This document shows positions 5,203-33,131 of a DNA stretch of 33,131 bases, piece after piece. The stretch's first letter is position 1. Each line of letters opens with the position of its first letter. The translations under genes and the position numbers were made by a program. The notes under the pieces are model-generated. The model made no database searches, was not told the DNA's origin, and saw nothing but the letters and a program-made list of their open reading frames with translations. The stretch comes from Clostridiales bacterium (GTDB lineage Bacteria > Bacillota > Clostridia > Christensenellales > Aristaeellaceae), in the NCBI GenBank assembly GCA_017577285.1, contig PITV01000005.1, positions 1 through 33,131 of the forward strand, written 5' to 3'.

Positions 5203-8200
5203 ATGAAGCGGACGGATATCAAAAAGATCCTCATTATCGGCTCGGGCCCCATCGTGATCGGTCAGGCCGCCGAGTTCGACTATGCCGGCACCCAGGCGTG
5301 TCTTGCCCTGCGCGAGGAGGGCTATGAGGTGATCCTGGTCAACTCCAACCCCGCCACCATCATGACCGATACCACCATTGCCGACAAGGTGTACATGGAG
5401 CCGCTCACGCTGGAATATGTGTGCAAGATCATCCGCTATGAGCGCCCCGATGCCATCGTTCCCGGCATCGGCGGGCAGACGGGCCTGAACCTTGCCATGC
5501 AGCTGGAAAAGAAGGGCGTGCTGAAGGAATGCAATGTGAAACTGCTCGGCACCGAAAGCGACAGCATCGAGCGTGCCGAGGACCGCGAGCGCTTCAAGGA
5601 GATGTGCCAGTCCATCGGCGAACCCGTCATTCCCTCCGAGATCACCTATTCTCCGGAGGAGGCCCTGAAGGCCGCACAGGATATCGGGTACCCCGTGGTG
5701 CTGCGCCCCGCCTTCACGCTGGGCGGCACCGGCGGCGGATTTGCCAACAACGAGCAGGAACTGATGGACCTGGCGCCCAATGCCTTCGCCCTGTCTCCCG
5801 TGCACCAGGTGCTCATTGAAAAGAGCGTCAAGGGATACAAGGAGATCGAGTTTGAGGTCATGCGCGACGGTACCGACCGCGCCATCACCATCTGCGGCAT
5901 GGAAAATGTGGATCCCGTGGGCGTGCACACCGGCGACTCGGTGGTGGTCGCGCCCATCCTGTCCCTTTCCGATGAGGATAAAAAGCGCCTCAATGACAGT
6001 GCCATCAAGATCATCCGTGAACTCAGGATCTGCGGCGGCTGCAATGTACAGTTCGCCCTCGACCCCGTGACGAGCGAATATTTCCTCATCGAGGTCAATC
6101 CCCGCGTTTCCCGCTCCTCGGCGCTGGCCTCCAAGGCATCCGGCTATCCCATCGCCCGCGTCACCGCCAAGGTGGCTGTGGGTATGACGCTGGATGAGAT
6201 CCCTGTGGCGGGCGGTTTCGCCTCCACCGAGCCCGATCTGGACTACATCGTGGCGAAATTCCCGCGCTTCCCCTTTGATAAGTTCTATTCCGTTCCCAAT
6301 GTGCTGGGCACCCAGATGAAGGCTACCGGCGAGGTCATGGGCATCGGCTCCACGCTGGAGGAATGCTTCCTGAAGTCCGTCCGTTCACTGGAGACCGGTG
6401 TCTGTCACTTCCGCATGAAGAAGTTTGACGGAAAGACCGCGAATGAACTGCTCGGCTATCTCGCAGATTTCCATGATGACAACCTGTTCGCAGTTGCCGA
6501 GGCGCTGCGCCTGGGCGTGACGGTGGATGAGCTGCACCGGGTCACCATGATCACGGAGCTTTTCCTGGAGAGCCTCAAGGGCATCGTTGCCATGGAAAAG
6601 AAGTTGGCGGATCATAAAGAAAATATCGAAATCCTCCGCGCCGCCAAGGTCATGGGCTTCGGTGACAAGTACATCGCCTCCCTGTGGAACATGAAGGAGA
6701 CCGATGTGTACGCTCTGCGGAAGCAGAACGGCATCATTCCCGTCTTCCGCATGGTGGACACCCTGCACACCGGCGCCTATATCGCCTACCTTTACTCCTC
6801 CTATACCGGGGAGAACCAGTCCCGCCACACCGGTAAAAAGAAGATCGTGGTGCTGGGCGCCGGCCCCATCCGCATCGGTCAGGGCGTGGAATTCGATTAC
6901 TCCACCGTCCATGCCGTTCAGACCATCCGCCGCGCGGGCTATGAGGCCATCATCATCAACAACAATCCCGAAACAGTATCCACCGATTACACCACCGCCG
7001 ACAAGCTCTACTTTGAGCCCCTGACCCCCGAGGATGTCATGGCCATCGTGGATTACGAGCAGCCGGACGGCGTCATCGCGTCCCTCGGCGGACAGACCGC
7101 CATCAATCTGGCGCAGCCGCTCTTCGACCGGGGCGTCAGGATCATCGGCACCGATTGCGAGGCCATCGACCGCGCCGAAAACCGCAAGAGCTTCGAGCGC
7201 ATCCTGCAGGAACTGAACATCCCCCAGCCCCAGGGCAGAGCTGTCACCGATATCGAGGAAGGCATCCGCGCCGCCAATGAGGTGGGCTATCCCGTGCTGG
7301 TGCGCCCCTCCTTTGTGCTGGGCGGCCGCGCCATGGAGATCGTCGCAAATGATGAAATGCTGCGGCATTACCTGAAGACCGCCGTGGAGATCGACAGCGA
7401 CAAGCCCGTGCTTGTGGATCATTACATCCAGGGCAAGGAAGTGGAAGTGGACGCCATCTGTGACGGCAACGATGTGTTCGTGCCCGGCATCATGGAACTG
7501 GTGGAGCGCACCGGCGTGCACTCCGGCGATTCCATCAGCGTGTATCCTTCCTACTCGGTGTCCAACAAGGTGAAGGGCATCATCCTGCAGTATGCAAAAA
7601 AACTGGGTCTGGGCATCGGTATCAGGGGCCTGTTCAACATCCAGTTCATCGTGGACAAGAAGGATGATGTGTACATCATCGAGGTCAATCCCCGCTCCTC
7701 CCGTACCGTTCCCTTCCTCTCCAAGGCAACCGGATACTCTCTGGCGGATATCGCCACGGAAGTCATCCTGGGCAAAACCCTCAAGGAGCAGGGCATCTTC
7801 TGCATCTATCCCGAGGAAAAGAAACGCTACTATGTGAAGGTGCCTGTGTTCTCCTCCCACAAGATCAAGGGACTGGATGCCTACCTTTCTCCTGAAATGA
7901 AATCCACCGGCGAAGCCATCGGCTATGACCGCTCCCTGTCCCGCGCCATGTACAAGGCGCTGCAGGCTTCCGGCATGAAGCTGCAGAACTACGGCACCGT
8001 GGTGGTGACGCTGGCGGATGAGGACAAGGAGGAGGCGCTTCCCATGGTGCGCGCTTTCTATGACATGGGCTTCAACATCGCCGCCACCGAAGGCACTGCC
8101 GCCTTCCTCAAGCAGCGGGGCATCCGCACCCACAAACTGGGCAAGATCAGCGAGGGCAGCAATGAGATCATCGATCTCATCCGCTCCGGTTTTGTCAGTT

Positions 8201-8376
8201 ATGTCATCAACACCCGCGCCGTTTCCTCCGGCGTGCATTACCGGGACGGCGCTGTCATCCGCCGCTGCGCTACCGAGAACGGCGTCACCATCTTCACCTC
8301 TCTGGACACCGCTCGCATCGTTACCGAGGTGCTGAAGGAAATGACCATTCCCGTTTCCACCATCGACGCGGAGTAA
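5203..8376 (+). CDS. carB: Carbamoyl phosphate synthase, large subunit
   Basis: CarB (1057 aa; E. coli 1073) makes carbamoyl phosphate from bicarbonate, ammonia and two ATP. The two homologous ATP-grasp halves are plain: IGQAAEFDYAGTQAC near residue 20 is echoed by IGQGVEFDYSTVHAV near residue 560, and IEVNPRVSRSS by IEVNPRSSRTV. The C-terminal 130 residues (from about 929) form the MGS-like allosteric domain, with the NIAATEGTAAFL segment. The glutaminase subunit CarA is not in the window; it may lie upstream of pyrC. Last gene of the visible pyr operon; the coding sequence ends at an abrupt drop in G+C. Confidence 0.97.
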   Translation: MKRTDIKKILIIGSGPIVIGQAAEFDYAGTQACLALREEGYEVILVNSNPATIMTDTTIADKVYMEPLTLEYVCKIIRYERPDAIVPGIGGQTGLNLAMQLEKKGVLKECNVKLLGTESDSIERAEDRERFKEMCQSIGEPVIPSEITYSPEEALKAAQDIGYPVVLRPAFTLGGTGGGFANNEQELMDLAPNAFALSPVHQVLIEKSVKGYKEIEFEVMRDGTDRAITICGMENVDPVGVHTGDSVVVAPILSLSDEDKKRLNDSAIKIIRELRICGGCNVQFALDPVTSEYFLIEVNPRVSRSSALASKASGYPIARVTAKVAVGMTLDEIPVAGGFASTEPDLDYIVAKFPRFPFDKFYSVPNVLGTQMKATGEVMGIGSTLEECFLKSVRSLETGVCHFRMKKFDGKTANELLGYLADFHDDNLFAVAEALRLGVTVDELHRVTMITELFLESLKGIVAMEKKLADHKENIEILRAAKVMGFGDKYIASLWNMKETDVYALRKQNGIIPVFRMVDTLHTGAYIAYLYSSYTGENQSRHTGKKKIVVLGAGPIRIGQGVEFDYSTVHAVQTIRRAGYEAIIINNNPETVSTDYTTADKLYFEPLTPEDVMAIVDYEQPDGVIASLGGQTAINLAQPLFDRGVRIIGTDCEAIDRAENRKSFERILQELNIPQPQGRAVTDIEEGIRAANEVGYPVLVRPSFVLGGRAMEIVANDEMLRHYLKTAVEIDSDKPVLVDHYIQGKEVEVDAICDGNDVFVPGIMELVERTGVHSGDSISVYPSYSVSNKVKGIILQYAKKLGLGIGIRGLFNIQFIVDKKDDVYIIEVNPRSSRTVPFLSKATGYSLADIATEVILGKTLKEQGIFCIYPEEKKRYYVKVPVFSSHKIKGLDAYLSPEMKSTGEAIGYDRSLSRAMYKALQASGMKLQNYGTVVVTLADEDKEEALPMVRAFYDMGFNIAATEGTAAFLKQRGIRTHKLGKISEGSNEIIDLIRSGFVSYVINTRAVSSGVHYRDGAVIRRCATENGVTIFTSLDTARIVTEVLKEMTIPVSTIDAE

Positions 8377-8377
8377 A

Positions 8378-8623
8378 GGATCCATTACAGAAAAATACGG
8401 TTCAAAAGCGTTAATTACATTAGGGGATTACCGTATTGGTGCAATATATCGAAGGGAGGAAAATGTTGATGGCATTTTGCAAGATCGGTGGGATTTCATT
8501 TTTACAACCGATCCGGAATTCCTTTCTGACGGTTATCGTGTGCAAATTTACAAAAGCATAGAAAACAATTCTACTGATGAGGTTATTGTGCATGTTGAAT
8601 ATGCCACCATAGAAAATGGTTAA
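8378..8623 (+). pseudogene. Unrecognised ORF remnant without start codon
   Basis: Immediately after carB, one frame stays open for about 80 codons and ends at TAA 8621-8623. The translated stretch looks protein-like (for example LGDYRIGAIYRREENVDG and WDFIFTTDPEFLSDGYRVQI), with alternating hydrophobic and charged residues, but contains no ATG or GTG in a useful position and no ribosome binding site in phase. Base composition is clearly A+T-richer than the flanking operons. I read it as the 3' end of a lost gene. I do not recognise the family. It could instead be a chance open frame, since 80 codons in this composition is only moderately improbable. Confidence 0.4.
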
Positions 8624-8684
8624 CCTAATAACTTGATATCAGCTTATTGATTCTGATCGAAAGTGATGATATCTGATTTTAAGT

Positions 8685-8714
8685 CCCGGAGCCTGAACAA
8701 CTCCGGGCACTTTT
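8685..8714 (+). terminator. Probable intrinsic terminator downstream of carB
   Basis: A perfect 7-bp stem CCCGGAG (8685-8691) / CTCCGGG (8701-8707) with a 9-nt loop is followed after CAC by TTTT (8711-8714). It lies about 310 nt past the carB stop, and no better terminator is nearer, so it may end the pyr transcript. The short, interrupted U-tract makes strength uncertain. Confidence 0.55.
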
Positions 8715-8860
8715 ATATTCCTCTGTATCACAGATTGCCTACTACCTGCTATATTTATTTGGCCGATTATGATCTTGCACAAGACGCAATGCAAGATACG
8801 TTTATGAAAGCATCTGAATGTATCTTAGCCGCTGGCTTTCAAAAAAAGAAAGGAAATTAA
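8711..8860 (+). pseudogene. Fragment resembling ECF sigma factor region 2
   Basis: The frame ending at TAA 8858-8860 encodes about 49 residues. Within it, YLADYDLAQDAMQDTFMKAS (about 8756-8815) closely matches the region 2.1-2.2 consensus of ECF sigma-70 factors (YLxDxxxAEDxxQExFLKA). The upstream residues LYHRLPTTCYIY also fit region 2.1. The similarity stops after the motif: the expected region 2.3-2.4, the linker and all of region 4 are missing. The preceding terminator hairpin overlaps its 5' edge and no ribosome binding site is apparent. I infer a decayed sigma factor gene. The match is by eye and short. Confidence 0.5.
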
Positions 8861-9116
8861 GTTAAAATGAAAAGAACACATGTATTTTGTATGAACCGGT
8901 TCGTATCGCGGTTTTTGTATGATTTTATATGAGTTTTCTCTTTCTTTTCATTGCCGTATGACAATAGAGTGCACTTTCAGTATGACTCCTGCAAGGATTA
9001 TTTCCTCGCGGGAGTTTATGCTTACGGTGTTTTTTTGACGGCTGTTTTCATACGCGCGGGACCATTGTCTGCTCCTTTATTCACATTTTTGTTACAATAT
9101 ATTTGTAGAAAAACAC
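8861..9116. other. A+T-rich intergenic stretch with no supportable gene
   Basis: About 250 nt with no convincing coding sequence. Short imperfect hairpins are present (CTCCTGC 8986-8992 with GCGGGAG 9008-9014), too weak to call. A 60-codon frame at 8951-9133 lacks a ribosome binding site and has no recognisable content. Composition resembles the decayed stretch before it rather than the flanking operons. Confidence 0.6.
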
Positions 9117-9145
9117 TTGTTTTTTTCTTTTGAGTGTGATAATAC
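9117..9145 (+). promoter_or_regulatory. Possible sigma-A promoter for the rbgA operon
   Basis: TTGTTT (9117-9122) and TAATAC (9140-9145) are separated by 17 nt; an overlapping reading with an extended -10, TGT-GATAAT (9135-9143), is also possible. It lies about 125 nt before rbgA, and no closer candidate is better. The A+T-rich context produces such matches by chance, so confidence is limited. Confidence 0.35.
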
Positions 9146-9270
9146 TTTATATGAAACTCGTTCTCATATCAAACAGGAAAAAAATGGAAATTGATGGAAG
9201 ACGCGGGTTTGCACGGAGAACTGCTCCGAAAATGACTTTCAATAACGATCAAATCATATAAGGATCATAT

Positions 9271-11219: not shown

Positions 11220-14200
11220 ATGAGAACGGATAAAAAAGAACAGAAAAAAACGCTTTTTACGAAACCGAAACGGAAGATATGGCTGATCGCCGCCGCTGTG
11301 CTGCTGACGGTCATCTGCCTGCTGGTCATTCTGCTTCCCAGGAACAGCACGGACAGGGCCGGGATCCTTGAGAACGGCGATTTTTCCCGTACAGACACGT
11401 GGGGCATCCCCGAGGGCTGGTATACCGAAGCCTGGTATGAAAGCGCCGATGTAACGGAGTTCTGCACCCGGGAGATCGATGGGAAGCCCTGCTTCTGCAT
11501 TACCAACTTTTCTGAGAATGACGCGCGTCTGGCGCAGTATGTGCAGGTGGAGCCGGACAGCATCTACTGTCTGCACGGCTATATCTGTGCCGAGGCGGAA
11601 GGCGGACGCGGAGCCAATTTCTCCATTGAGGGGCTGTACTGCTTTTCCGAACAGGTGTATTCCACCGGCGGAGAATGGAAGGAGATCACCTACTGGGGCA
11701 GGACCGGCGCTTCACAGACCGGGCTTACGGTTTTCCTGCGTCTGGGCGGGTACAGCGGAGAAGCTACCGGATCCGCTTGTTTCCGGGATGTGACGCTTAC
11801 GAAGGAAGACAGCCTTCCGGACGGCGTATTTGCTGATGAATGGTTTTCCTGGGAGGAATCCCAGGCTTATGAGGAGGAGACGGAGGCAGGCGGGAGCACC
11901 GCGCTGTCATCCATCATCACCATCCTTTTTTCAGCGATCCTGTATATCGTCTTTGCCGATATCCTTCTGGTATGGGCCCGCTATGACAGAAAGGATCTGA
12001 CCGCGTCCCGCTCTCCCGCGGGATATATCGCTGCGGCGCTGGTGCTGATCGCCGCTTTTGTCATACGCATGATCGTTGCTGTGCGCGTGACGGGCTATGA
12101 TATCGATGTGAATGACTTCACGGCCTGGGCCGGGGATATCCGCGGCACCGGAACGACCCGATTCTATACCACGGAGAGCTTCTGCGATTATCCGCCGGGA
12201 TATATGCTGGTGCTCTGGCTGACTTCCATATTCGGGAACGGCTCTCTGCTCAGCATCAAAATGCCCTCCATCCTGTGCGATTTTGCTCTGGCCGCCGCGA
12301 TCTGTCTGGCCGGCCTGAAGTATACCTCCAGGCGCAGGGCGCTGGTCATGAGCCTCATCTATATCCTTTGCCCGGTCACGGTATGCACCGGCGCCGCGTG
12401 GGGACAGTCTGATGCGGTCATGGCCCTGTTCCTGGGCATCAGCGTGATCCTCGCGATCCGGCACAACTGGGCATGCGCACTGCCTGTGTATACGGTTTCC
12501 GTGCTGATGAAGCCTCAGGCGCTCATGTTCGGTCCGCTGGGAGTTGCCGCGCTGATCCTGGATATCATCCTTGCCTTTGCTGAGAACAGAAAGAGTGATA
12601 AAACTGCTGACGGAAGCACCGGGAATGCCCCCTCTGTTCTGAAAAAGCGCCTGATCAGTACAGGCGCCGGTTTTGCGGCGTCCGCTCTGGTGCTGGGCAT
12701 CATTTTCCTGCTCTTTACCGATATGACCGCCCTGAAGCAGGGCGTGGGCATCAGCGCGCCGGAGCAGGATCCCGCCCGGACGGAGATATCCTATACCTTT
12801 GAATGCGATCAGGTACAGGTCTTTTATCACAACAGCGATGAGGTGGAGGAAGCCGATCCTTCCGGCGCCGCCGTATACTGCTGTTCGGACGGAAGCGTCC
12901 GCATGATGAACGGGGATGAACTGATCAGCTCCGGTTCCTGGCGCGTTTCCGGGAATACGGTGTATATCACGCTGGGAGAGGCTGTTTTCCAGACGACCGA
13001 TGACTTTGGCGCGGAGGAGAATCACTACCGTTCCCGCTACCGGCTCACCTGCTCGGTCGATACGGGCGAGGCCTCCTGCCTGTATACCTTCTCCTGCCGC
13101 GGACAGAGGGCTGACTGGCTGATCTGCCTGTACGGAGCCACCCTGTCCTCCTATAACTGCTGCAGTGTGAACGGCTGCAATCTGTTCTTCCTGCTGGGAG
13201 AGAACTGGAAGGACGCGGAGACCACTCCGGTCAGCACCATGATGGTGATCCTGTGCGCGCTGACCTTCATTCTGCCCTTTGCTTTTTGCTTTACCAGAGG
13301 CGGATATAAGCGCACCGCCCTGCAGTTGGGCGTCCTTGTGCTCGTACTGGGCGGATGCCTGGTTTATCTGCTCCTTTCCGCTTCCGGGAGCGGCATCATG
13401 TCTGATGACTGGGGCATGCTGATGATCATCCTCAGCGTGGGTCTGTCCCTGTGGCTGCTGGCGGGGGGACGGGATCTGCGCCATCTGCCGCTGGCGGGCG
13501 CTGTTCTGCTGCTGCTGCTTTTCAATACCGCCACCAAAATGCATGAACGCTATCTGTTCCCGGCCCTGATGCTGCTGGTGATCGCCTTTATCGTGGAAAA
13601 GGACCGCCGCATCATTTGGCTGCTGCTGGGCGTGAGCGCCTTCAGCCTGATGAACGTGGGCTGCGTGCTGGAGCGCAATATGCGCATCGGCGGCGTGGAC
13701 GGGCATCTGAGCGCGCCGGCTTTCGATATCGGAAGCGATACGGCATTTCTGGAATACATGTCTGCCGCAGGCAATTTCGTGTGCGCCATGCTGGGTGTAT
13801 GGATCGGCGCGGATCTGTGCCTGACAGGCGGGAGCCCGTGGGAGCTTTCTCCCTATACCCGCGGCAGGAAACAGCATCGGCTGCGCGATTCCCTGACCGG
13901 CTCTGAGGGCGGCAGCGGAAAACAGGAAAAGACCGGGCGCATGACCGGACGGGACTGGCTGATCATGGGCGTGGCAACAGTGCTGTATGCCGTGCTGGCG
14001 CTGACAAATCTGGGCTCGATGAAAGCGCCGCAGACAGAGTATACATACCGCGACTGTGCTGTTTTCGATCTGGGCGAGAGCCGCGATTTCATTCTGAAAT
14101 TCTATACCGATCCCGGCCGCGCCTCCGGCAAGCTGATGATCTCCACCGGGGAGGACGGTCAGAACTGGGAACTGTGTGCCGACAGGTATATCGACAATAT

Positions 14201-16304
14201 GGACGGCCTGGGCTGGAAAGCGTTTTCCGGCACCGCCTTCAGGGGAAGATATCTGAAGGTGGATTTCACCAAGTGCTATGACGCGAACATCGGTGAGTTC
14301 CTGTGCTATGACGCTGAGACCGGTGAGCAGATCCCCCTTGTTCTCGCATCGGGATTTGAGGGACACGCCGCCCTTTGCGATGAACAGGATGTGCTGGATC
14401 AGGCCGGAAGCGGACTGCTGGCCCGCACCCTGGCGGAGGATAACAGCGCTTTCCTGCCGGTTCCCGAAAGCTATTATGATCCCGCCTTTGATGAGAATGT
14501 CCTTGTCTTCGATCTGGGCAGTCACCGGAATTTCAAGGCGCTGTACTATTCCGGCATCCAGTGGGTGGAGAACTATACATTCAACCTTGTCACGGCGGAT
14601 TCTCCGGACGGCACCGGGCAGACCTATCTGTGCGAGAGCGCTGACGGCGACTGTTTCGGCTGGAAGTATGTCTGCGGCGGCTATGTGCTTTCCGGAAGGT
14701 ATCTCAGGGTATGTCTGGCGGGCTGCAGCGACATGAGCCTGTTCGAGTTCCTGTGCCGGGACGCGTTCACGGATGAGGTCATTCCCCTCACCCTGGTCTC
14801 CGGTCCGCGGGAGGCCGCGGTTCTCTGCGATGAGCCTGATACGCTGGAGGGAGAGCCCTCATGGTGGAACAGCACATATTTTGACGAGATCTATCATGCC
14901 CGCACGGCCTATGAGCATCTGCACGGCCTGAGGGTGTACGAGACCACCCATCCGCCCCTCGGAAAGGTCATCATAAGCTGGAGCGTGGGCATCTTCGGCA
15001 TGTGCCCGTTCGGGTGGAGACTGCCGGGCGCGCTCTGCGGCGTGTTCATGCTTCCCGCCATCTATATGATCGCGAGACTGCTGCTGAAGCGCCGGCGCTA
15101 CGCCGTGGGCGCCATCCTGATCCTGGCGCTGGACTGCATGCATTTCACACAGACGCGCATCGCCACCATTGACAGCTATGTGGTGCTGTTCATCCTCTGG
15201 AGCGTGTACTTTATGTTCTACTGGATGAAACAAAATTATTTCGGCACAAAATACTGGAAGACCTTTGTGCCGCTGCTGGCTTCCGGCGTCTTCATGGGAC
15301 TTTCCGTGGCAAGCAAATGGACCGGCTGCTATAACGGCATCGGCCTTGCCATCCTGTTCTTTGTTACCTGGATCTGGCGCTGCCTGCAGGTGAGAAAGGC
15401 ACGCAGGATGGTGCGGGAGGACGATTTTGATGATTGCGGCGATGAGCAGAGAGAGAAGATCCGCCGCACGGTCTCGTCCGGGCATCTGAAACTGTTCGGG
15501 ACGCTCCTTTCCTGCATCGTTTTCTTCATCCTCATCCCGCTTGTGATCTATTACATGTCCTATATCCCGTATTTCGCGTATGACGGCGGCGTTACTGTGG
15601 AAAAGGTGATTGTGGCCGCGGTGGGCAGGTATTTCACTACCGGTGAGGTGGGCGGAATGCTGGGCTATCACTCCACGCCGGGGCTGGGAATGGATCATTA
15701 CTTCTATTCCCCCTGGTATGAATGGCCCATCGATGCCAGACCTATGTGGTTCTATCAGGGCGTTTACGCCGATGGCAGCGATGTGGGCTCCACCATCATG
15801 ACCATGGGCAATCCCGCCGTGTGGTGGGGAGGCCTGCTGGCCATGCTCATCATGATCGTGCTGATCTATGTGTACTGCAGACGGCAGTGGTCCCTGAGGG
15901 GGAGCGACGCGCCGGCGGCGCTGAAGGACAGTCACAGCATGCAGTGGCTGCTGGTGGTCTTCGCGGTACAGTTCCTGCCCTGGACATTCGTGCCCAGAGG
16001 CACCTATATCTATCACTATTTCGCCTGCGTGCCTGTGATCATTCTGGCGGCCATGACCGTGCTGAGCACTTTTGAGGATATGTTCACGGCGCGGAGAGCC
16101 CGCATCGCGGCACCGGTATGCGCCGGAGTTCCGGAAGGGGCGGAAAAGCGGCCGGGATCGCCTGTTTTCCTCTGTATACTGATCGCCTATATCGTGCTTT
16201 GTCTTGTGATGTTTATCGCGTTCTTCCCCTATGCCAGCGGCATAGAAGTGAGCACCGGCTGGCTGGAGGGGATGCGCTGGTTCGATAACTGGCTGTGGTA
16301 CTGA
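11220..16304 (+). CDS. Giant multidomain membrane glycosyltransferase (Gpi18-like GT-C fused to PMT/GT39-like GT-C)
   Basis: A 1694-aa multi-pass membrane protein. Layout by residue: TM1 about 19-39; extracytoplasmic beta-rich domain about 45-200, carbohydrate-binding-like (NGDFSRTDTWGIPEGW); a first GT-C unit about 228-860 with D294/D296/D299, DYPPGYM (323), WGQSDAV (394), a KPQA segment (about 430) and KMHERYLFP (773), all typical of Gpi18-like mannosyltransferases, and interrupted by a soluble insertion about 512-640; two tandem beta-rich repeats 945-1060 and 1094-1210; a second GT-C unit from about 1215 to the end with FDEIYHA (D1222, E1223) and THPPLGK (H1244), the PMT/GT39 catalytic-loop motifs. 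It probably uses polyprenyl-phosphate sugar donors to glycosylate an extracytoplasmic acceptor; substrate unknown. Starts after AAGGAAAACC. It interrupts a conserved housekeeping block. Confidence 0.85.
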   Translation: MRTDKKEQKKTLFTKPKRKIWLIAAAVLLTVICLLVILLPRNSTDRAGILENGDFSRTDTWGIPEGWYTEAWYESADVTEFCTREIDGKPCFCITNFSENDARLAQYVQVEPDSIYCLHGYICAEAEGGRGANFSIEGLYCFSEQVYSTGGEWKEITYWGRTGASQTGLTVFLRLGGYSGEATGSACFRDVTLTKEDSLPDGVFADEWFSWEESQAYEEETEAGGSTALSSIITILFSAILYIVFADILLVWARYDRKDLTASRSPAGYIAAALVLIAAFVIRMIVAVRVTGYDIDVNDFTAWAGDIRGTGTTRFYTTESFCDYPPGYMLVLWLTSIFGNGSLLSIKMPSILCDFALAAAICLAGLKYTSRRRALVMSLIYILCPVTVCTGAAWGQSDAVMALFLGISVILAIRHNWACALPVYTVSVLMKPQALMFGPLGVAALILDIILAFAENRKSDKTADGSTGNAPSVLKKRLISTGAGFAASALVLGIIFLLFTDMTALKQGVGISAPEQDPARTEISYTFECDQVQVFYHNSDEVEEADPSGAAVYCCSDGSVRMMNGDELISSGSWRVSGNTVYITLGEAVFQTTDDFGAEENHYRSRYRLTCSVDTGEASCLYTFSCRGQRADWLICLYGATLSSYNCCSVNGCNLFFLLGENWKDAETTPVSTMMVILCALTFILPFAFCFTRGGYKRTALQLGVLVLVLGGCLVYLLLSASGSGIMSDDWGMLMIILSVGLSLWLLAGGRDLRHLPLAGAVLLLLLFNTATKMHERYLFPALMLLVIAFIVEKDRRIIWLLLGVSAFSLMNVGCVLERNMRIGGVDGHLSAPAFDIGSDTAFLEYMSAAGNFVCAMLGVWIGADLCLTGGSPWELSPYTRGRKQHRLRDSLTGSEGGSGKQEKTGRMTGRDWLIMGVATVLYAVLALTNLGSMKAPQTEYTYRDCAVFDLGESRDFILKFYTDPGRASGKLMISTGEDGQNWELCADRYIDNMDGLGWKAFSGTAFRGRYLKVDFTKCYDANIGEFLCYDAETGEQIPLVLASGFEGHAALCDEQDVLDQAGSGLLARTLAEDNSAFLPVPESYYDPAFDENVLVFDLGSHRNFKALYYSGIQWVENYTFNLVTADSPDGTGQTYLCESADGDCFGWKYVCGGYVLSGRYLRVCLAGCSDMSLFEFLCRDAFTDEVIPLTLVSGPREAAVLCDEPDTLEGEPSWWNSTYFDEIYHARTAYEHLHGLRVYETTHPPLGKVIISWSVGIFGMCPFGWRLPGALCGVFMLPAIYMIARLLLKRRRYAVGAILILALDCMHFTQTRIATIDSYVVLFILWSVYFMFYWMKQNYFGTKYWKTFVPLLASGVFMGLSVASKWTGCYNGIGLAILFFVTWIWRCLQVRKARRMVREDDFDDCGDEQREKIRRTVSSGHLKLFGTLLSCIVFFILIPLVIYYMSYIPYFAYDGGVTVEKVIVAAVGRYFTTGEVGGMLGYHSTPGLGMDHYFYSPWYEWPIDARPMWFYQGVYADGSDVGSTIMTMGNPAVWWGGLLAMLIMIVLIYVYCRRQWSLRGSDAPAALKDSHSMQWLLVVFAVQFLPWTFVPRGTYIYHYFACVPVIILAAMTVLSTFEDMFTARRARIAAPVCAGVPEGAEKRPGSPVFLCILIAYIVLCLVMFIAFFPYASGIEVSTGWLEGMRWFDNWLWY
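14052..14848 (+). repeat. Two tandem ~115-residue repeats inside the giant glycosyltransferase
   Basis: Copy 1 spans about 14052-14400 and copy 2 about 14499-14848. Both run VFDLG-x2-R-x-F, then GWK, GRYLxV, EFLCxDAxTxExIPLxLxSG, ALCDE or VLCDE, and D-x-L at the end. The pattern suggests a duplicated discoidin/jelly-roll-like extracytoplasmic module placed between the two catalytic membrane units. Similarity is at the protein level by eye; DNA identity is not high enough for a recent duplication. Confidence 0.7.
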
Positions 16305-28897: not shown

Positions 28898-29716
28898 ATG
28901 AGCGAATGTACCCACGATTGCAGCACCTGCGGCCAGAACTGTTCTTCCCGCAAGCCTGAGAGTTTACTGGAAAAGCCCCATGAGGGCACTGACATCAAGA
29001 AAGTGATCGCCGTGGTCAGCGGCAAGGGCGGCGTCGGCAAGAGCATGGTCACGGCTATGCTTTCCGTTATGGCGCGCCGCGAAGGCCTGGAAGTGGGCGT
29101 TATGGATGCCGATATCACCGGCCCCTCCATTCCCCGCGCCTTCGGTATCCATGATCCCGCCATGGGAACAGAGGACGCCATCCTGCCCGTGAAGACCAAA
29201 ACCGGCATCGATATCATGAGCCTGAACCTGCTGGTGGAAGAGGAGACCACGCCTGTCGTATGGCGCGGCCCCGTTATCGCCGGCACGGTGAAACAGTTCT
29301 GGACTGATGTGCTCTGGGGACGCAAGGATATCATGTTCATCGATATGCCTCCCGGAACGGGCGATGTTCCCCTCACCGTGTTCCAGTCCATTCCTGTGGA
29401 CGGCATCATCGTGGTCACCACGCCTCAGGAACTGGTGGGTATGATCGTGGAGAAAGCCCTGAACATGGCGGATATGATGAATATTCCCGTCCTGGGCATC
29501 GTGGAGAACATGAGCTACGCCGTGTGCCCCGATTGCGGAAAGCATGTGAACGTGTTCGGCGAGGGCCATGCCGGGGAAGTGGCGGAGCGCCACAATCTGA
29601 AGGTGCTGGGCAAACTGCCCATCGACACCAAACTGGCGGGTGCCTGCGACCAGGGCCTGATCGAACTCTTCGACGGAAACTGGCTGGATGACGCCCTGAA
29701 AATGATCACAAAGTGA
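28898..29716 (+). CDS. mrp: Mrp/ApbC-family Fe-S cluster carrier ATPase
   Basis: P-loop protein of the Mrp/NBP35 branch of the MinD family (272 aa), thought to bind and transfer [4Fe-4S] clusters to target enzymes. Seen: an N-terminal four-cysteine motif C4-x3-C8-x2-C11-x3-C15, the deviant Walker A SGKGGVGKS (41-49), DADITGPSIPR (switch I region), DMPPGTGD (Walker B side), and C210-x2-C213, the paired cysteines that hold a cluster at the dimer interface. The N-terminal cysteine arm is common in anaerobic Bacillota. Own promoter upstream and terminator downstream, so it is probably monocistronic. Starts behind AGAGGA. Confidence 0.93.
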   Translation: MSECTHDCSTCGQNCSSRKPESLLEKPHEGTDIKKVIAVVSGKGGVGKSMVTAMLSVMARREGLEVGVMDADITGPSIPRAFGIHDPAMGTEDAILPVKTKTGIDIMSLNLLVEEETTPVVWRGPVIAGTVKQFWTDVLWGRKDIMFIDMPPGTGDVPLTVFQSIPVDGIIVVTTPQELVGMIVEKALNMADMMNIPVLGIVENMSYAVCPDCGKHVNVFGEGHAGEVAERHNLKVLGKLPIDTKLAGACDQGLIELFDGNWLDDALKMITK

Positions 29717-29775: not shown

Positions 29776-29815
29776 ACCCCGTTGGCTGCCCCGGCAGCGG
29801 CGGGGTTTTCTTTTT
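29776..29815 (+). terminator. Intrinsic terminator after mrp
   Basis: Outer stem ACCCCG (29776-29781) / CGGGGT (29801-29806) encloses a GC-rich inner hairpin (GCTGCC / GGCAGC), followed by TTTTCTTTTT. Located about 60 nt after the mrp stop; strong by inspection. Confidence 0.88.
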
Positions 29816-29873: not shown

Positions 29874-29901
29874 TTGATAATATCCGCCAAAATGGTATAA
29901 T
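29874..29901 (+). promoter_or_regulatory. Strong sigma-A promoter for the phosphatase-STAS-NRPS genes
   Basis: TTGATA (29874-29879), 16-nt spacer, TATAAT (29896-29901), with TG-G directly before the -10 giving an extended element. It lies 89 nt before the GTG start of the next gene, leaving a leader of about 80 nt. Confidence 0.75.
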
Positions 29902-29990: not shown

Positions 29991-32069
29991 GTGAAAAACG
30001 CGAAAAAAATAAAGATCAATGTGCACAGTCTGCGCTCCAGGATCAGGATCGTCATCCTGCTTCTTTCTGTGCTGCTGATCGCCACTGTCGAAATCACCAT
30101 GACCCGATCCATACGCAATATGGCGGAGCAGGCCATGCTGAGCCGTATGGAGGGCGATATCAACTATATCAAGGATCTGATCTGGCAGGCGGATCATGAC
30201 CGCAAGACATATTCCGGGAATCAGGACAAACCGGTCGCGGAGGACGGGGACTGGAGCATTCAGGACGGCGCGCTGTTTTACGGCACGATCCTGATCGGTG
30301 ACGGCACGGAGGAAAACGCCTACCTGGAACCTTTTCAGCTCATGAAGGGCAGGACAGGGTCTTTCTCCTATACCTTTGTCCGTTGTCCGGATGAGGGACT
30401 GACCTGGGCGGGAGACGGGAAGGGCGGTTATCAGCAGGGCCATTATCTTCGTGTAGCCGGCAGCACCCTTGATTCAGAGGGAAATACCATCATCGGCACC
30501 TATATCGACAAGAAGGTTGCCGATATCATTGAGGCGACCGGTATTTACTGCGGCTACGCGAATGTGGTGGGTGAGCAGGTCTTCTGCATGTACAGCCCGC
30601 TGACAGATCAGAACGGGAACAGGGTGGGCGTGATCGTTGTGGGAAGGAGCGTTGAGGTCATCGAGGCTCAGACCCGCAAGACCGCCGGGCTCCTTTTCTG
30701 GCTGATCGTCGTATCCGTCCTGCTGGTGGATATCGTGCTGAACGCGTTCGCCACCCGCTGGATCGCAAAACTGGATATCGCGAATCATTATCTGATGGAT
30801 ATCTCCACCGGCGCCTTCCCGCGCAAACCGCTGGACCTGCATACGCGGGATGAACTGTATGTGACCGCTCAGTGTATCAATGAGATGACCGATGCCCTGA
30901 AGGAGAAGGAGCGCATCAGCGGCGAACTGGAAGCGGCGGCCAATATCCAGCGGTACATGCTGCCCCGTGAATTCGCTGAAAATGAAGCCTTCGGTGTGAA
31001 CGCGTTCATGTATCCGGCCAAAGAGGTCGGCGGGGACTTTTATGATTTCTTTATGACCGATGAGGATCATCTGGCGGTGGTCATCGCCGATGTTTCCGGC
31101 AAGGGCGTTCCCGCCGCCATGTTCATGGCCATCGCAAAGATGCTGATCAAGAATCACGCGCAGATGGGCCTGAAACCCTGCGAGGTGTTCAACCGGGCGA
31201 ATGCCCTGCTGTGTGAGGGCAACGAGACCAGTATTTTCGTGACGGCGTGGATGGGCGTTCTGGATCTGCGTTCCGGAAAACTGACCTATGTCAACGCCGG
31301 ACATAATCCGCCCCTGATCCGCCTGAAAGACGGCGGCTTCGACTGGCTGAAATCGAAACCCGGGATGGTGCTGGCTGCCTTTGATACTGTGAAGTATGAG
31401 CAGAACGAACTGATCATGTCGCCCGGTGACCGGCTGTTCCTGTACACGGATGGTGTGACGGAGGCCATGGATGCGGAAAACAGCCTTTACGGTTCCAAAC
31501 GTCTGAAGGATCATCTGGATGTACACGGGGCGGAAGCGCCCGCGCAGGTGCTGAACGGCCTGAAGGCGGATATCGATTCCTTTGCCGGCGGTCAGGAACA
31601 GTTTGACGATATCACCATGCTGATGCTGGATTACCGCGAAAAAGCCGGAGAGGGCGGAAACTGTGAGACAGCGGAGCGGGATTTCCCGGCAGCGGAGGCC
31701 GCTCTTCAGGATGCCATCGGCTTCGCGGAGGAAACGCTGGCGGCAAGGCAGATCCCGGCCAGGATCCTTTCCAGAATGCTGATGGCGGTGGAGGAGATCT
31801 TCACCAATATCGCGAAGTTCGCTTATCCCGGCGGGGAGGGCACTGTGAGCCTTGGGATCTGCACGGAGGATAAGACGGTGCGGATGCGGTTCACCGATCA
31901 GGGCGTGCCCTTTGATCCAACACAGGCGGAGGATCCCGATATCGATCTGCCCCTTGAGCAGCGCGAGACGGGCGGACTGGGGATCTATCTGGTGAAAGAG
32001 ATCATGGATGAAGTGACATACAGCAGGGAAAACGGACGGAATATCCTGCAGATGACCAGAAAATACTGA
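29991..32069 (+). CDS. Membrane sensor with PP2C (SpoIIE/RsbU) phosphatase and RsbW-type kinase domains
   Basis: 692 aa. TM1 at about 21-37, an extracytoplasmic sensor region about 40-230 (Cache-like by position, not proven), TM2 about 233-255, HAMP about 255-308, then the PP2C/SpoIIE domain: EAAANIQRYMLP, GGDFYDFF (D349), ADVSGKGVPAAMFM (D367), YTDGVTEAMD (D487) and FDDITML (D539, D540), all metal-site aspartates intact. The last 140 residues are a HATPase_c_2 domain: VEEIFTNIAKFAYP (N606 of the N box), FTDQGVPFDP and GGLGIYLVKEIMDEV. Such phosphatases dephosphorylate a STAS protein, while RsbW-type domains phosphorylate it; a STAS gene follows at once. GTG start behind GGGGAGG, 10-nt spacing. 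No sigma factor gene is adjacent, so the output is unknown. Confidence 0.9.
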   Translation: MKNAKKIKINVHSLRSRIRIVILLLSVLLIATVEITMTRSIRNMAEQAMLSRMEGDINYIKDLIWQADHDRKTYSGNQDKPVAEDGDWSIQDGALFYGTILIGDGTEENAYLEPFQLMKGRTGSFSYTFVRCPDEGLTWAGDGKGGYQQGHYLRVAGSTLDSEGNTIIGTYIDKKVADIIEATGIYCGYANVVGEQVFCMYSPLTDQNGNRVGVIVVGRSVEVIEAQTRKTAGLLFWLIVVSVLLVDIVLNAFATRWIAKLDIANHYLMDISTGAFPRKPLDLHTRDELYVTAQCINEMTDALKEKERISGELEAAANIQRYMLPREFAENEAFGVNAFMYPAKEVGGDFYDFFMTDEDHLAVVIADVSGKGVPAAMFMAIAKMLIKNHAQMGLKPCEVFNRANALLCEGNETSIFVTAWMGVLDLRSGKLTYVNAGHNPPLIRLKDGGFDWLKSKPGMVLAAFDTVKYEQNELIMSPGDRLFLYTDGVTEAMDAENSLYGSKRLKDHLDVHGAEAPAQVLNGLKADIDSFAGGQEQFDDITMLMLDYREKAGEGGNCETAERDFPAAEAALQDAIGFAEETLAARQIPARILSRMLMAVEEIFTNIAKFAYPGGEGTVSLGICTEDKTVRMRFTDQGVPFDPTQAEDPDIDLPLEQRETGGLGIYLVKEIMDEVTYSRENGRNILQMTRKY

Positions 32070-32090
32070 TTGGTTCCGGGGGAGACTGCC

Positions 32091-32390
32091 ATGGAGATCA
32101 GAAAAGAAACAGACGGGACGGTACTGAGGTTCACGCTTTCGGGCAGACTGGATACGCTTTCGGCGCCTGAACTGGAGAAGGAATTGAATGATCCGCTCAT
32201 CCGGACACAGGAACTGGTGTTTGACATGGCCGGGGTGGATTATATTTCCTCTGCCGGGCTGAGGATTTTTCTGTGTACACAGAAGGCGGTCAGCGGAAGC
32301 GGGAGCATGAAACTGATCCGCGTGAATCCCGATGTGAAGGAAATATTTGATATCACCGGCTTTTCCGGTATCATGGATATTGAACAGTAA
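32091..32390 (+). CDS. STAS-domain anti-sigma factor antagonist-like protein
   Basis: A single STAS domain (99 aa) of the SpoIIAA/RsbV type. The phospho-acceptor loop is DYISSAGLRIF, with Ser53/Ser54 at the position phosphorylated in SpoIIAA and RsbV. The preceding LSGRLDTLSAPELEKEL strand-helix is the usual family N-terminus. It probably cycles between phosphorylated and unphosphorylated forms through the kinase and phosphatase domains of the upstream protein. I chose ATG 32091 behind GGGGGAG; the frame extends 7 codons further up without a better site. The partner that it releases or binds is not in view. Confidence 0.92.
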   Translation: MEIRKETDGTVLRFTLSGRLDTLSAPELEKELNDPLIRTQELVFDMAGVDYISSAGLRIFLCTQKAVSGSGSMKLIRVNPDVKEIFDITGFSGIMDIEQ

Positions 32391-32470
32391 GCAAGATGAC
32401 ACGGGAGCGGAGGACAACAGAGCACTCTGAAGACCACACCCGGAAATATGGACTGGAGCACAGGATCGAT

Positions 32471-33131
32471 ATGGATACAGTACAGAAAGAGATATACACA
32501 GGCAGAGTTTTTCCGCTGACCGATGTTCAGCGGGGGATCTATTTCGAATGCATGGAAAGACCGGAAACCACGGGGTACAATATCGCGTTTGCCCTGGATC
32601 TGCCGCCATCCGCCGATACGGAACGTTTTGCCCGGGCTGTTGAGAAGGTTGCCGCGCTCCATCCTGCCCTGTTCGTCACGATCGGCACGGAAGACGGGAC
32701 GCCTGTGATGCGCGGAGGCGAAAATCATGTTCAGATCGCCCGCACTCGCGCCGGGAGCGTGAAAGAGGTAAAGGCGGGTTTTGTAAAGCCCTTTGACTTG
32801 AAAAAGGATGCTCTTTACCGGTTTGAACTGTGCGAAACGCCGGAGGGCACAGTATTCCTCATGGATGTGCATCACCTGATCTTTGACGGCACATCGCTTT
32901 ATGTGTTCCTTTCCCAGATCGCCGCGGCTTATGACGGCGCGCAGGTGGAAGCAGAGGGAAAGAGTTTCTTTGAAGCTGCCGCGGAGACGGAACAGATCCG
33001 GAACGGCGCGGGTGAGAAGCACCGGGAGGCGCAGGCTTTCTTCCGCGAGCAGCTGGAGGGAAAAGAATGGGACGCGGGCCTTCTTCCGGATGCGGGAGGC
33101 AGAGAGACTGACGATCTGGAAGGCATTGAAG
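32471..33131 (+). CDS. Nonribosomal peptide synthetase, N-terminal condensation domain (3' end outside window)
   Basis: Open frame of 220 codons running off the window end. It opens with a condensation (C) domain: RVFPLTDVQRGIYFE near residue 12 (C1-like motif) and the catalytic HHLIFDG (H134-G140), the HHxxxDG active site with the second His H135. C domains form peptide bonds between carrier-bound acyl groups, or in starter position acylate the first residue. No adenylation or carrier domain is visible yet, so a stand-alone acyltransferase relative is possible. Start uncertain: ATG 32471 has AGGA 5 nt upstream and puts the domain near the N-terminus; in-frame ATG 32396 would add 25 charged residues without a good site. 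Confidence 0.85.
   Translation, partial: MDTVQKEIYTGRVFPLTDVQRGIYFECMERPETTGYNIAFALDLPPSADTERFARAVEKVAALHPALFVTIGTEDGTPVMRGGENHVQIARTRAGSVKEVKAGFVKPFDLKKDALYRFELCETPEGTVFLMDVHHLIFDGTSLYVFLSQIAAAYDGAQVEAEGKSFFEAAAETEQIRNGAGEKHREAQAFFREQLEGKEWDAGLLPDAGGRETDDLEGIE

Follow-up and report, generated by a model that had tools for sequence, protein, structure and literature searches.

Genes of a partner switch built from a sensor phosphatase/kinase and STAS proteins are associated with NRPS genes that end in a reductase domain, and the association is well documented across genomes of several families. Our best reading is that the output of this switch is the NRPS/exporter itself and not a sigma factor. 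The starting point was a 33,131-nucleotide stretch of DNA from a gut-type bacterium, hereafter called the window, which is the whole of contig C298 of a metagenome-type genome (G000, 2.6 Mb, 75% complete). The contig ends at 33131, inside the NRPS gene. With the continuation found on another G000 contig, C286, four genes can be arranged as a single operon (sensor phosphatase/kinase, STAS 1, reductase-ended NRPS and STAS 2), an arrangement which forms part of the explanation that we consider probable as a whole. The features are as follows.

29788–29806, plus strand: terminator-like hairpin (consensus match), 3′ of an upstream Mrp/ParA-family gene (28898–29716).
29874–29901, plus strand: sigma-70-type promoter-like site, TTGATA-16-TATAAT with TG extension (11/12, consensus match).
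29991–32069, plus strand: membrane protein of 692 aa with an extracytoplasmic single Cache sensor, a PP2C (SpoIIE-type) domain and an RsbW-type HATPase_c_2 kinase domain (Pfam and motifs).
32070–32390, plus strand: STAS 1, SpoIIAA/RsbV-like (Pfam STAS, E 8e-15, 32070–32387).
32250–32252, plus strand: TCT codon of the STAS 1 phospho-acceptor serine (Ser61 from the TTG start, Ser54 from ATG 32091).
32396–33131, plus strand: 5′ part of the NRPS gene, N-terminal half of the starter condensation domain, truncated where the contig stops.
33123–33131, plus strand: join to C286, GCATTGAAG, equal to the first 9 bases of reverse-complemented C286, in frame.
L099 (C286) 13742–7087, minus strand: remainder of the NRPS gene, A-T-C-A-T-reductase, with STAS 2 next.
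L099 (C286) 7083–6775, minus strand: STAS 2, 7 bp behind the NRPS gene, serine intact.

The hairpin at 29788–29806 sets the Mrp/ParA-family gene apart from the switch-NRPS operon. The initial annotation had proposed one transcript from a promoter at 29874; the 11/12 site was indeed seen, and consensus matching of the region revealed no terminator-like site between the STAS 1 and NRPS genes. These terminator and promoter calls are consensus matches only, with three promoter-like sites found in the region against 1.9 expected. No sigma factor gene was found in or near the operon, in agreement with the earlier remark that none lies between the switch genes and the NRPS.

The first gene product was described correctly as a PP2C phosphatase and an RsbW-type kinase in one protein behind an extracytoplasmic sensor. 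Pfam domains encoded by 29991–32066 are sCache_3_3 (residues 153–230), SpoIIE/PP2C (357–548, E 9e-51) and HATPase_c_2 (565–689, E 2e-24), and the kinase domain also matches RsbW 6m36. Two hydrophobic stretches, at about 13–39 and 230–256, flank the Cache region, which therefore lies outside the cytoplasm. The PP2C metal/catalytic motifs (GGDFYD, DVSGKG, DGVTEA, DDIT) and the kinase motifs (N-box E-x3-N, EIFTN, and D-x-G, DQG) are intact. Pfam detected no receiver (REC) domain in the 692-aa protein, which has the Cache domain and two membrane stretches instead. A whole-genome search of the G000 assembly revealed two PP2C genes, one of them that of the window.

STAS 1 can start at TTG 32070 or at ATG 32091, which has GGGGGAG ahead of it and is the likelier start. 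Its serine aligns with Ser58 of SpoIIAA, and the second gene thus codes, as had been noted, for a STAS protein with an intact phospho-acceptor serine. In the whole G000 assembly only two STAS genes were found, both in this operon, on either side of the NRPS.

The third gene had been called an NRPS condensation domain. This holds for the part present in the window, where the Pfam Condensation match at 32396–33130 covers profile positions 4–214 of 456, the first half of the domain; ATG 32471 is an alternative start. The reverse complement of C286 opens with the second half of a condensation domain. The joined NRPS is 2460 aa long, and its starter C domain aligns without gaps across the join with that of a relative (L101). 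A condensation-domain search found no such domain on G000 contigs other than the window and C286, which makes C286 the unique partner of the window. From the sequence match we strongly infer that C286 continues the NRPS of the window. An extension beyond 33131 had been proposed earlier, and C286 supplies it: the remaining modules, a terminal reductase and STAS 2. Given this join, the NRPS is organized as C-A-T-C-A-T-R (reductase NAD_binding_4, E 1e-35), and has the two modules and terminal thioester reductase domain of dipeptide-aldehyde NRPSs. Its predicted product is an N-acyl dipeptide aldehyde, the N-acylation being suggested by the extra N-terminal C domain.

The search for condensation domains covered the family (308 genomes), the order (396) and the phylum (398); NRPS loci were picked regardless of their neighbors and scanned with profiles built here from the same data set. 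In family and order together, 41 loci with a reductase-ended NRPS were obtained. A STAS gene lies within 5 kb in 19 of them (0.47 expected) and a PP2C gene in 16 (0.64 expected), where the expectations were derived from how densely such genes occur genome-wide in eight of these genomes and are conservative, since the density was taken from positive genomes. Any switch element, MATE-HATPase included, is found near 26 of the 41 loci; about 15 have none within 5 kb, some of these with incomplete flanks. The corresponding counts for 48 non-reductase NRPS loci are 3 (STAS), 2 (PP2C) and 4 (any element). All 37 STAS/PP2C genes in the examined loci are within 5 kb of the NRPS, 34 of them on its strand, and many overlap or sit within 30 bp. 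Of about 22 genera from five families, 11 have both STAS and PP2C genes by hand count (genus-level p about 4e-15 for 11/24; locus-level p-values ignore kinship). The gene order varies, with the switch upstream of the NRPS in the window, L102, L200 and L209, downstream in L101, L159, L208 and L218, and on both sides in L204 and, counting STAS 2, in the window. The search for co-occurrence across genomes that the initial annotation had put forward thus gave a positive answer. It had also held that the link would be coincidental if the phosphatase-STAS pair occurred in unrelated contexts and the NRPS elsewhere. Half of this applies, as the pair does occur alone (in L019 and L020, for example), yet the NRPS link is about 25–40 times above chance, and a verdict of coincidence is therefore not warranted. 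Recurrence, co-orientation, domain fusions and STAS 2 at the 3′ end strongly support a functional tie between the switch and the NRPS.

Two kinds of fusion were found. MATE exporters with a C-terminal RsbW-like HATPase_c_2 domain occur in many loci (by Pfam in L152, L207, L237 and others), including the surroundings of 14 of the 41 reductase-NRPS loci. Some of the fused domains retain the catalytic Glu/Asn while others are devoid of the Asn or of the glycine-rich loop, so that they may bind STAS and not phosphorylate it. The MATE fusion is not confined to NRPS loci, since STAS, MATE-HATPase and PP2C sets with no NRPS in the stretch examined were seen in Flavonifractor sp. An306 (L081:4985–11177) and in L067, L086, L093 and L041. 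The second kind joins STAS to a condensation domain in one protein (L227, L228, L237 and L242, all in family f71 of the phylum, probably Selenomonadaceae judging from RND pumps and gene content). Each such fusion is near or followed by a MATE or MATE-HATPase gene, a sensor PP2C precedes it in L228 and L237, and the phospho-serine is retained in the three fusions aligned. No adenylation domain is found beside the fusion in L227, L228 and L242, where it consequently need not serve a standard NRPS. A plasmid search gave C-domain matches only and no STAS-condensation fusion. Among the sequence evidence, the fusions give the strongest hint that STAS acts on these proteins.

PP2C-HATPase/STAS pairs are widespread, often without an NRPS, and represent a generic module. 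In a phosphatase tree built by a quick method, the NRPS-linked copies form two dedicated clades plus scattered singles, with about 7 label changes, at least 2 of them forced; on this quick tree, monophyly of the NRPS-linked phosphatases was rejected, and the pattern can be read as repeated recruitment of the switch module to NRPSs. The window phosphatase is nearest to those of L019 and L020, two loci where no NRPS lies close to the PP2C-STAS pair, and the link in G000 therefore rests on the operon structure. Over 15 loci, the distances of the PP2C, STAS and reductase domains are correlated with one another (Mantel r 0.38–0.74, 0 of 5000 permutations), partly through shared descent.

Control of peptide synthesis by the switch had been suggested earlier, either through a distant sigma factor or by binding of a biosynthetic protein. 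The connection with the NRPS stands, while the two routes fared differently. On the first, STAS would bind the kinase/anti-sigma protein and free a distant sigma factor that transcribes the NRPS operon, as in a canonical partner switch. The three classical enzyme/antagonist components are all there, partial sigma/ECF-like matches were found in all genomes examined, and ECF or other sigma factors are possible outputs. No SigB/F/G-type sigma factor, however, scored over the cut-off in G000, G008, G209, G283 or G291, the best matches being RpoD-sized (completeness of the first four is 75%, 97%, 95% and 91%). Sporulating relatives and most order-level positives do carry SigF/G-type factors, so that the missing-sigma argument covers only part of the set. 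In one such relative (G050), the sporulation STAS and kinase genes adjoin SigF on contig C20, apart from the NRPS-linked STAS on C1. The promoter-like site of the operon is of the plain sigma-70 type, and fusions of the switch domains to condensation domains and MATE exporters are not expected with a sigma output. We therefore regard the sigma route as unlikely; the fusions favor a biosynthetic or transport protein as the partner bound. A solitary RsbW-like protein encoded on another G000 contig (C302, L240) was also considered and rejected; its neighbors look metabolic or iron-sulphur-related, with none recognized as a STAS, PP2C or sigma gene.

It is likewise improbable that the switch governs only export or self-protection, acting on MATE through the RsbW-like domain, with the NRPS a neighbor of the exporter and not a target. 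MATE-HATPase genes accompany about a third of the reductase-NRPS loci and stand beside PP2C/STAS genes without an NRPS, as in Flavonifractor; but no MATE gene was found in the operon of the window, seven loci with STAS, PP2C and a reductase NRPS (L101, L102, L200, L208, L209, L213, L218) are MATE-free within 5 kb, and the STAS-condensation fusions point to the synthetase side. Chance adjacency of a common signaling module and a common NRPS type could draw on the abundance of NRPS-free pairs and on the grouping of the window PP2C with unlinked copies. We rejected it as highly improbable in view of the enrichment (41 versus 48 loci) and the co-orientation of 34 of 37 genes; linkage is moreover kept despite varied gene order and what appear to be several recruitments, the fusions exist, and both STAS genes of the G000 assembly bracket one NRPS.

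Under the preferred reading, post-translational control of the NRPS/exporter, a signal at the extracytoplasmic Cache domain would decide whether the PP2C phosphatase or the RsbW-type kinase prevails, and with it whether the STAS serine is dephosphorylated or phosphorylated. One STAS form would then bind the synthetase, probably at its condensation domain, and, in relatives, also the RsbW-like part of the MATE exporter fusion, so that peptide synthesis and export would be turned on or off. That the sensor protein sets the phosphorylation of two STAS proteins which control the NRPS/exporter is in our judgment the probable state of affairs; the phosphorylation cycle is deduced from the protein families, and we infer the protein bound and the direction of the switch. 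Direct STAS-NRPS binding, judged from sequence, is a tentative proposal. Slightly less tentatively, we suggest a class of NRPSs under partner-switch control, in which STAS would dock on the condensation domain and on the exporter RsbW-like domain, the STAS-condensation fusions being a covalent form of this contact.

Known switches resemble the window system in part. As in RsbU/RsbW/RsbV and SpoIIE/SpoIIAB/SpoIIAA, a PP2C, a HATPase_c_2 kinase and a STAS with conserved serine are all present; in contrast to them, the kinase is fused to the phosphatase, an NRPS is in the operon and a sigma factor is not. Since no SigB/F/G-type factor was found, the window does not code for a classical sigma switch. 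The earlier statement that known partner switches have a sigma factor as output is incorrect: in HsbA-HsbD, BgrV-BgrR and SiaC-SiaD, a STAS or STAS-like protein binds a diguanylate cyclase directly and controls it according to its own phosphorylation state (PMC8457831), and SypA of Vibrio fischeri has a non-sigma target (PMC10120452). By analogy, the STAS phosphorylation state may control an enzyme in the window too, though this would be an NRPS and not a diguanylate cyclase, and SiaA/SiaB are a separate phosphatase and kinase. SypE, like the window protein, combines an RsbW-like serine kinase and a PP2C, with the single STAS SypA as downstream output (PMC10120452), a single-domain STAS being likewise the neighbor in the window. 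SypE differs in its central receiver domain (PMC12826045) and biofilm output, against a Cache sensor, two membrane stretches and an NRPS here; devoid of a receiver, the window protein is not a SypE member. In Vogesella indigofera, the RsbW-like domain protein of TciK/TciR is genetically tied to indigoidine, an NRPS product, but this is a two-component system with a REC-RsbW protein and no RsbV homologue (PMC12826045), not an operon of the window kind. AusA of Staphylococcus aureus and gut dipeptide-aldehyde NRPSs such as that of ruminopeptin are bimodular, with a terminal reductase that releases the aldehyde, and the AusA locus is described as ausAB, without a switch (PMC12153313, PMC12327764). 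AusA is the best NCBIfam match of the C286 NRPS, at 946.9 bits far below the 2500-bit equivalog cut-off; two modules and a terminal reductase are shared, while the window NRPS has an extra N-terminal C domain. In the literature searched, mostly outside subscription journals, nothing was found on STAS with a condensation domain, on STAS control of an NRPS or on a partner switch with NRPS/exporter output.

NRPSs are generally thought to be regulated by transcription and substrate supply, and peptide aldehydes of gut-type Clostridia have been described as protease inhibitors. If the preferred reading is true, an operon-built phospho-switch would be a new layer of control over how these bacteria make peptide aldehydes. 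Orphan PP2C/STAS modules abound in genomes that have no matching sigma factor; these modules would gain a testable target, and the switch genes could guide genome mining for reductase-type NRPS clusters and serve to switch such clusters on.

Several further arrangements were observed. A single run in L055 (1581–11335) contains two STAS genes, a 431-aa condensation-like protein (called with a profile built here, with no Pfam match), an APH-like protein (by eye), MATE-HATPase and PP2C-HATPase. In L058:3200–4124 and L046:6052–6739, a STAS gene is directly followed by an AMP-binding (adenylation) gene, which is short or truncated at the contig edge. Fusions of STAS to an APH-type phosphotransferase (L019:2765–3967, L029:11190–12356, L204:11936–13117, L046:3324–5156, L051:2506–4251), some preceded by HD_4, are found repeatedly next to PP2C-HATPase genes in MAGs of gut Firmicutes. 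Sodium:dicarboxylate symporters (SDF) with about 130 extra N-terminal residues (L022:1002–4170, L024:1758–4959, L025:11561–14741, L049:4705–6345) directly adjoin STAS and PP2C-HATPase genes, also in Phascolarctobacterium, and are possibly another transporter output of the switch; the idea that their extensions are HATPase remnants came from by-eye likeness, found no Pfam support and was dropped. Elsewhere in the window, about 0.9 kb (8377–9264) has no long ORF and no Rfam match, with a G+C of 0.45 (8001–9000) versus 0.58, and a 1694-aa ORF (11220–16304) is protein-O-mannosyltransferase-like only in its last third (residues 1244–1691).
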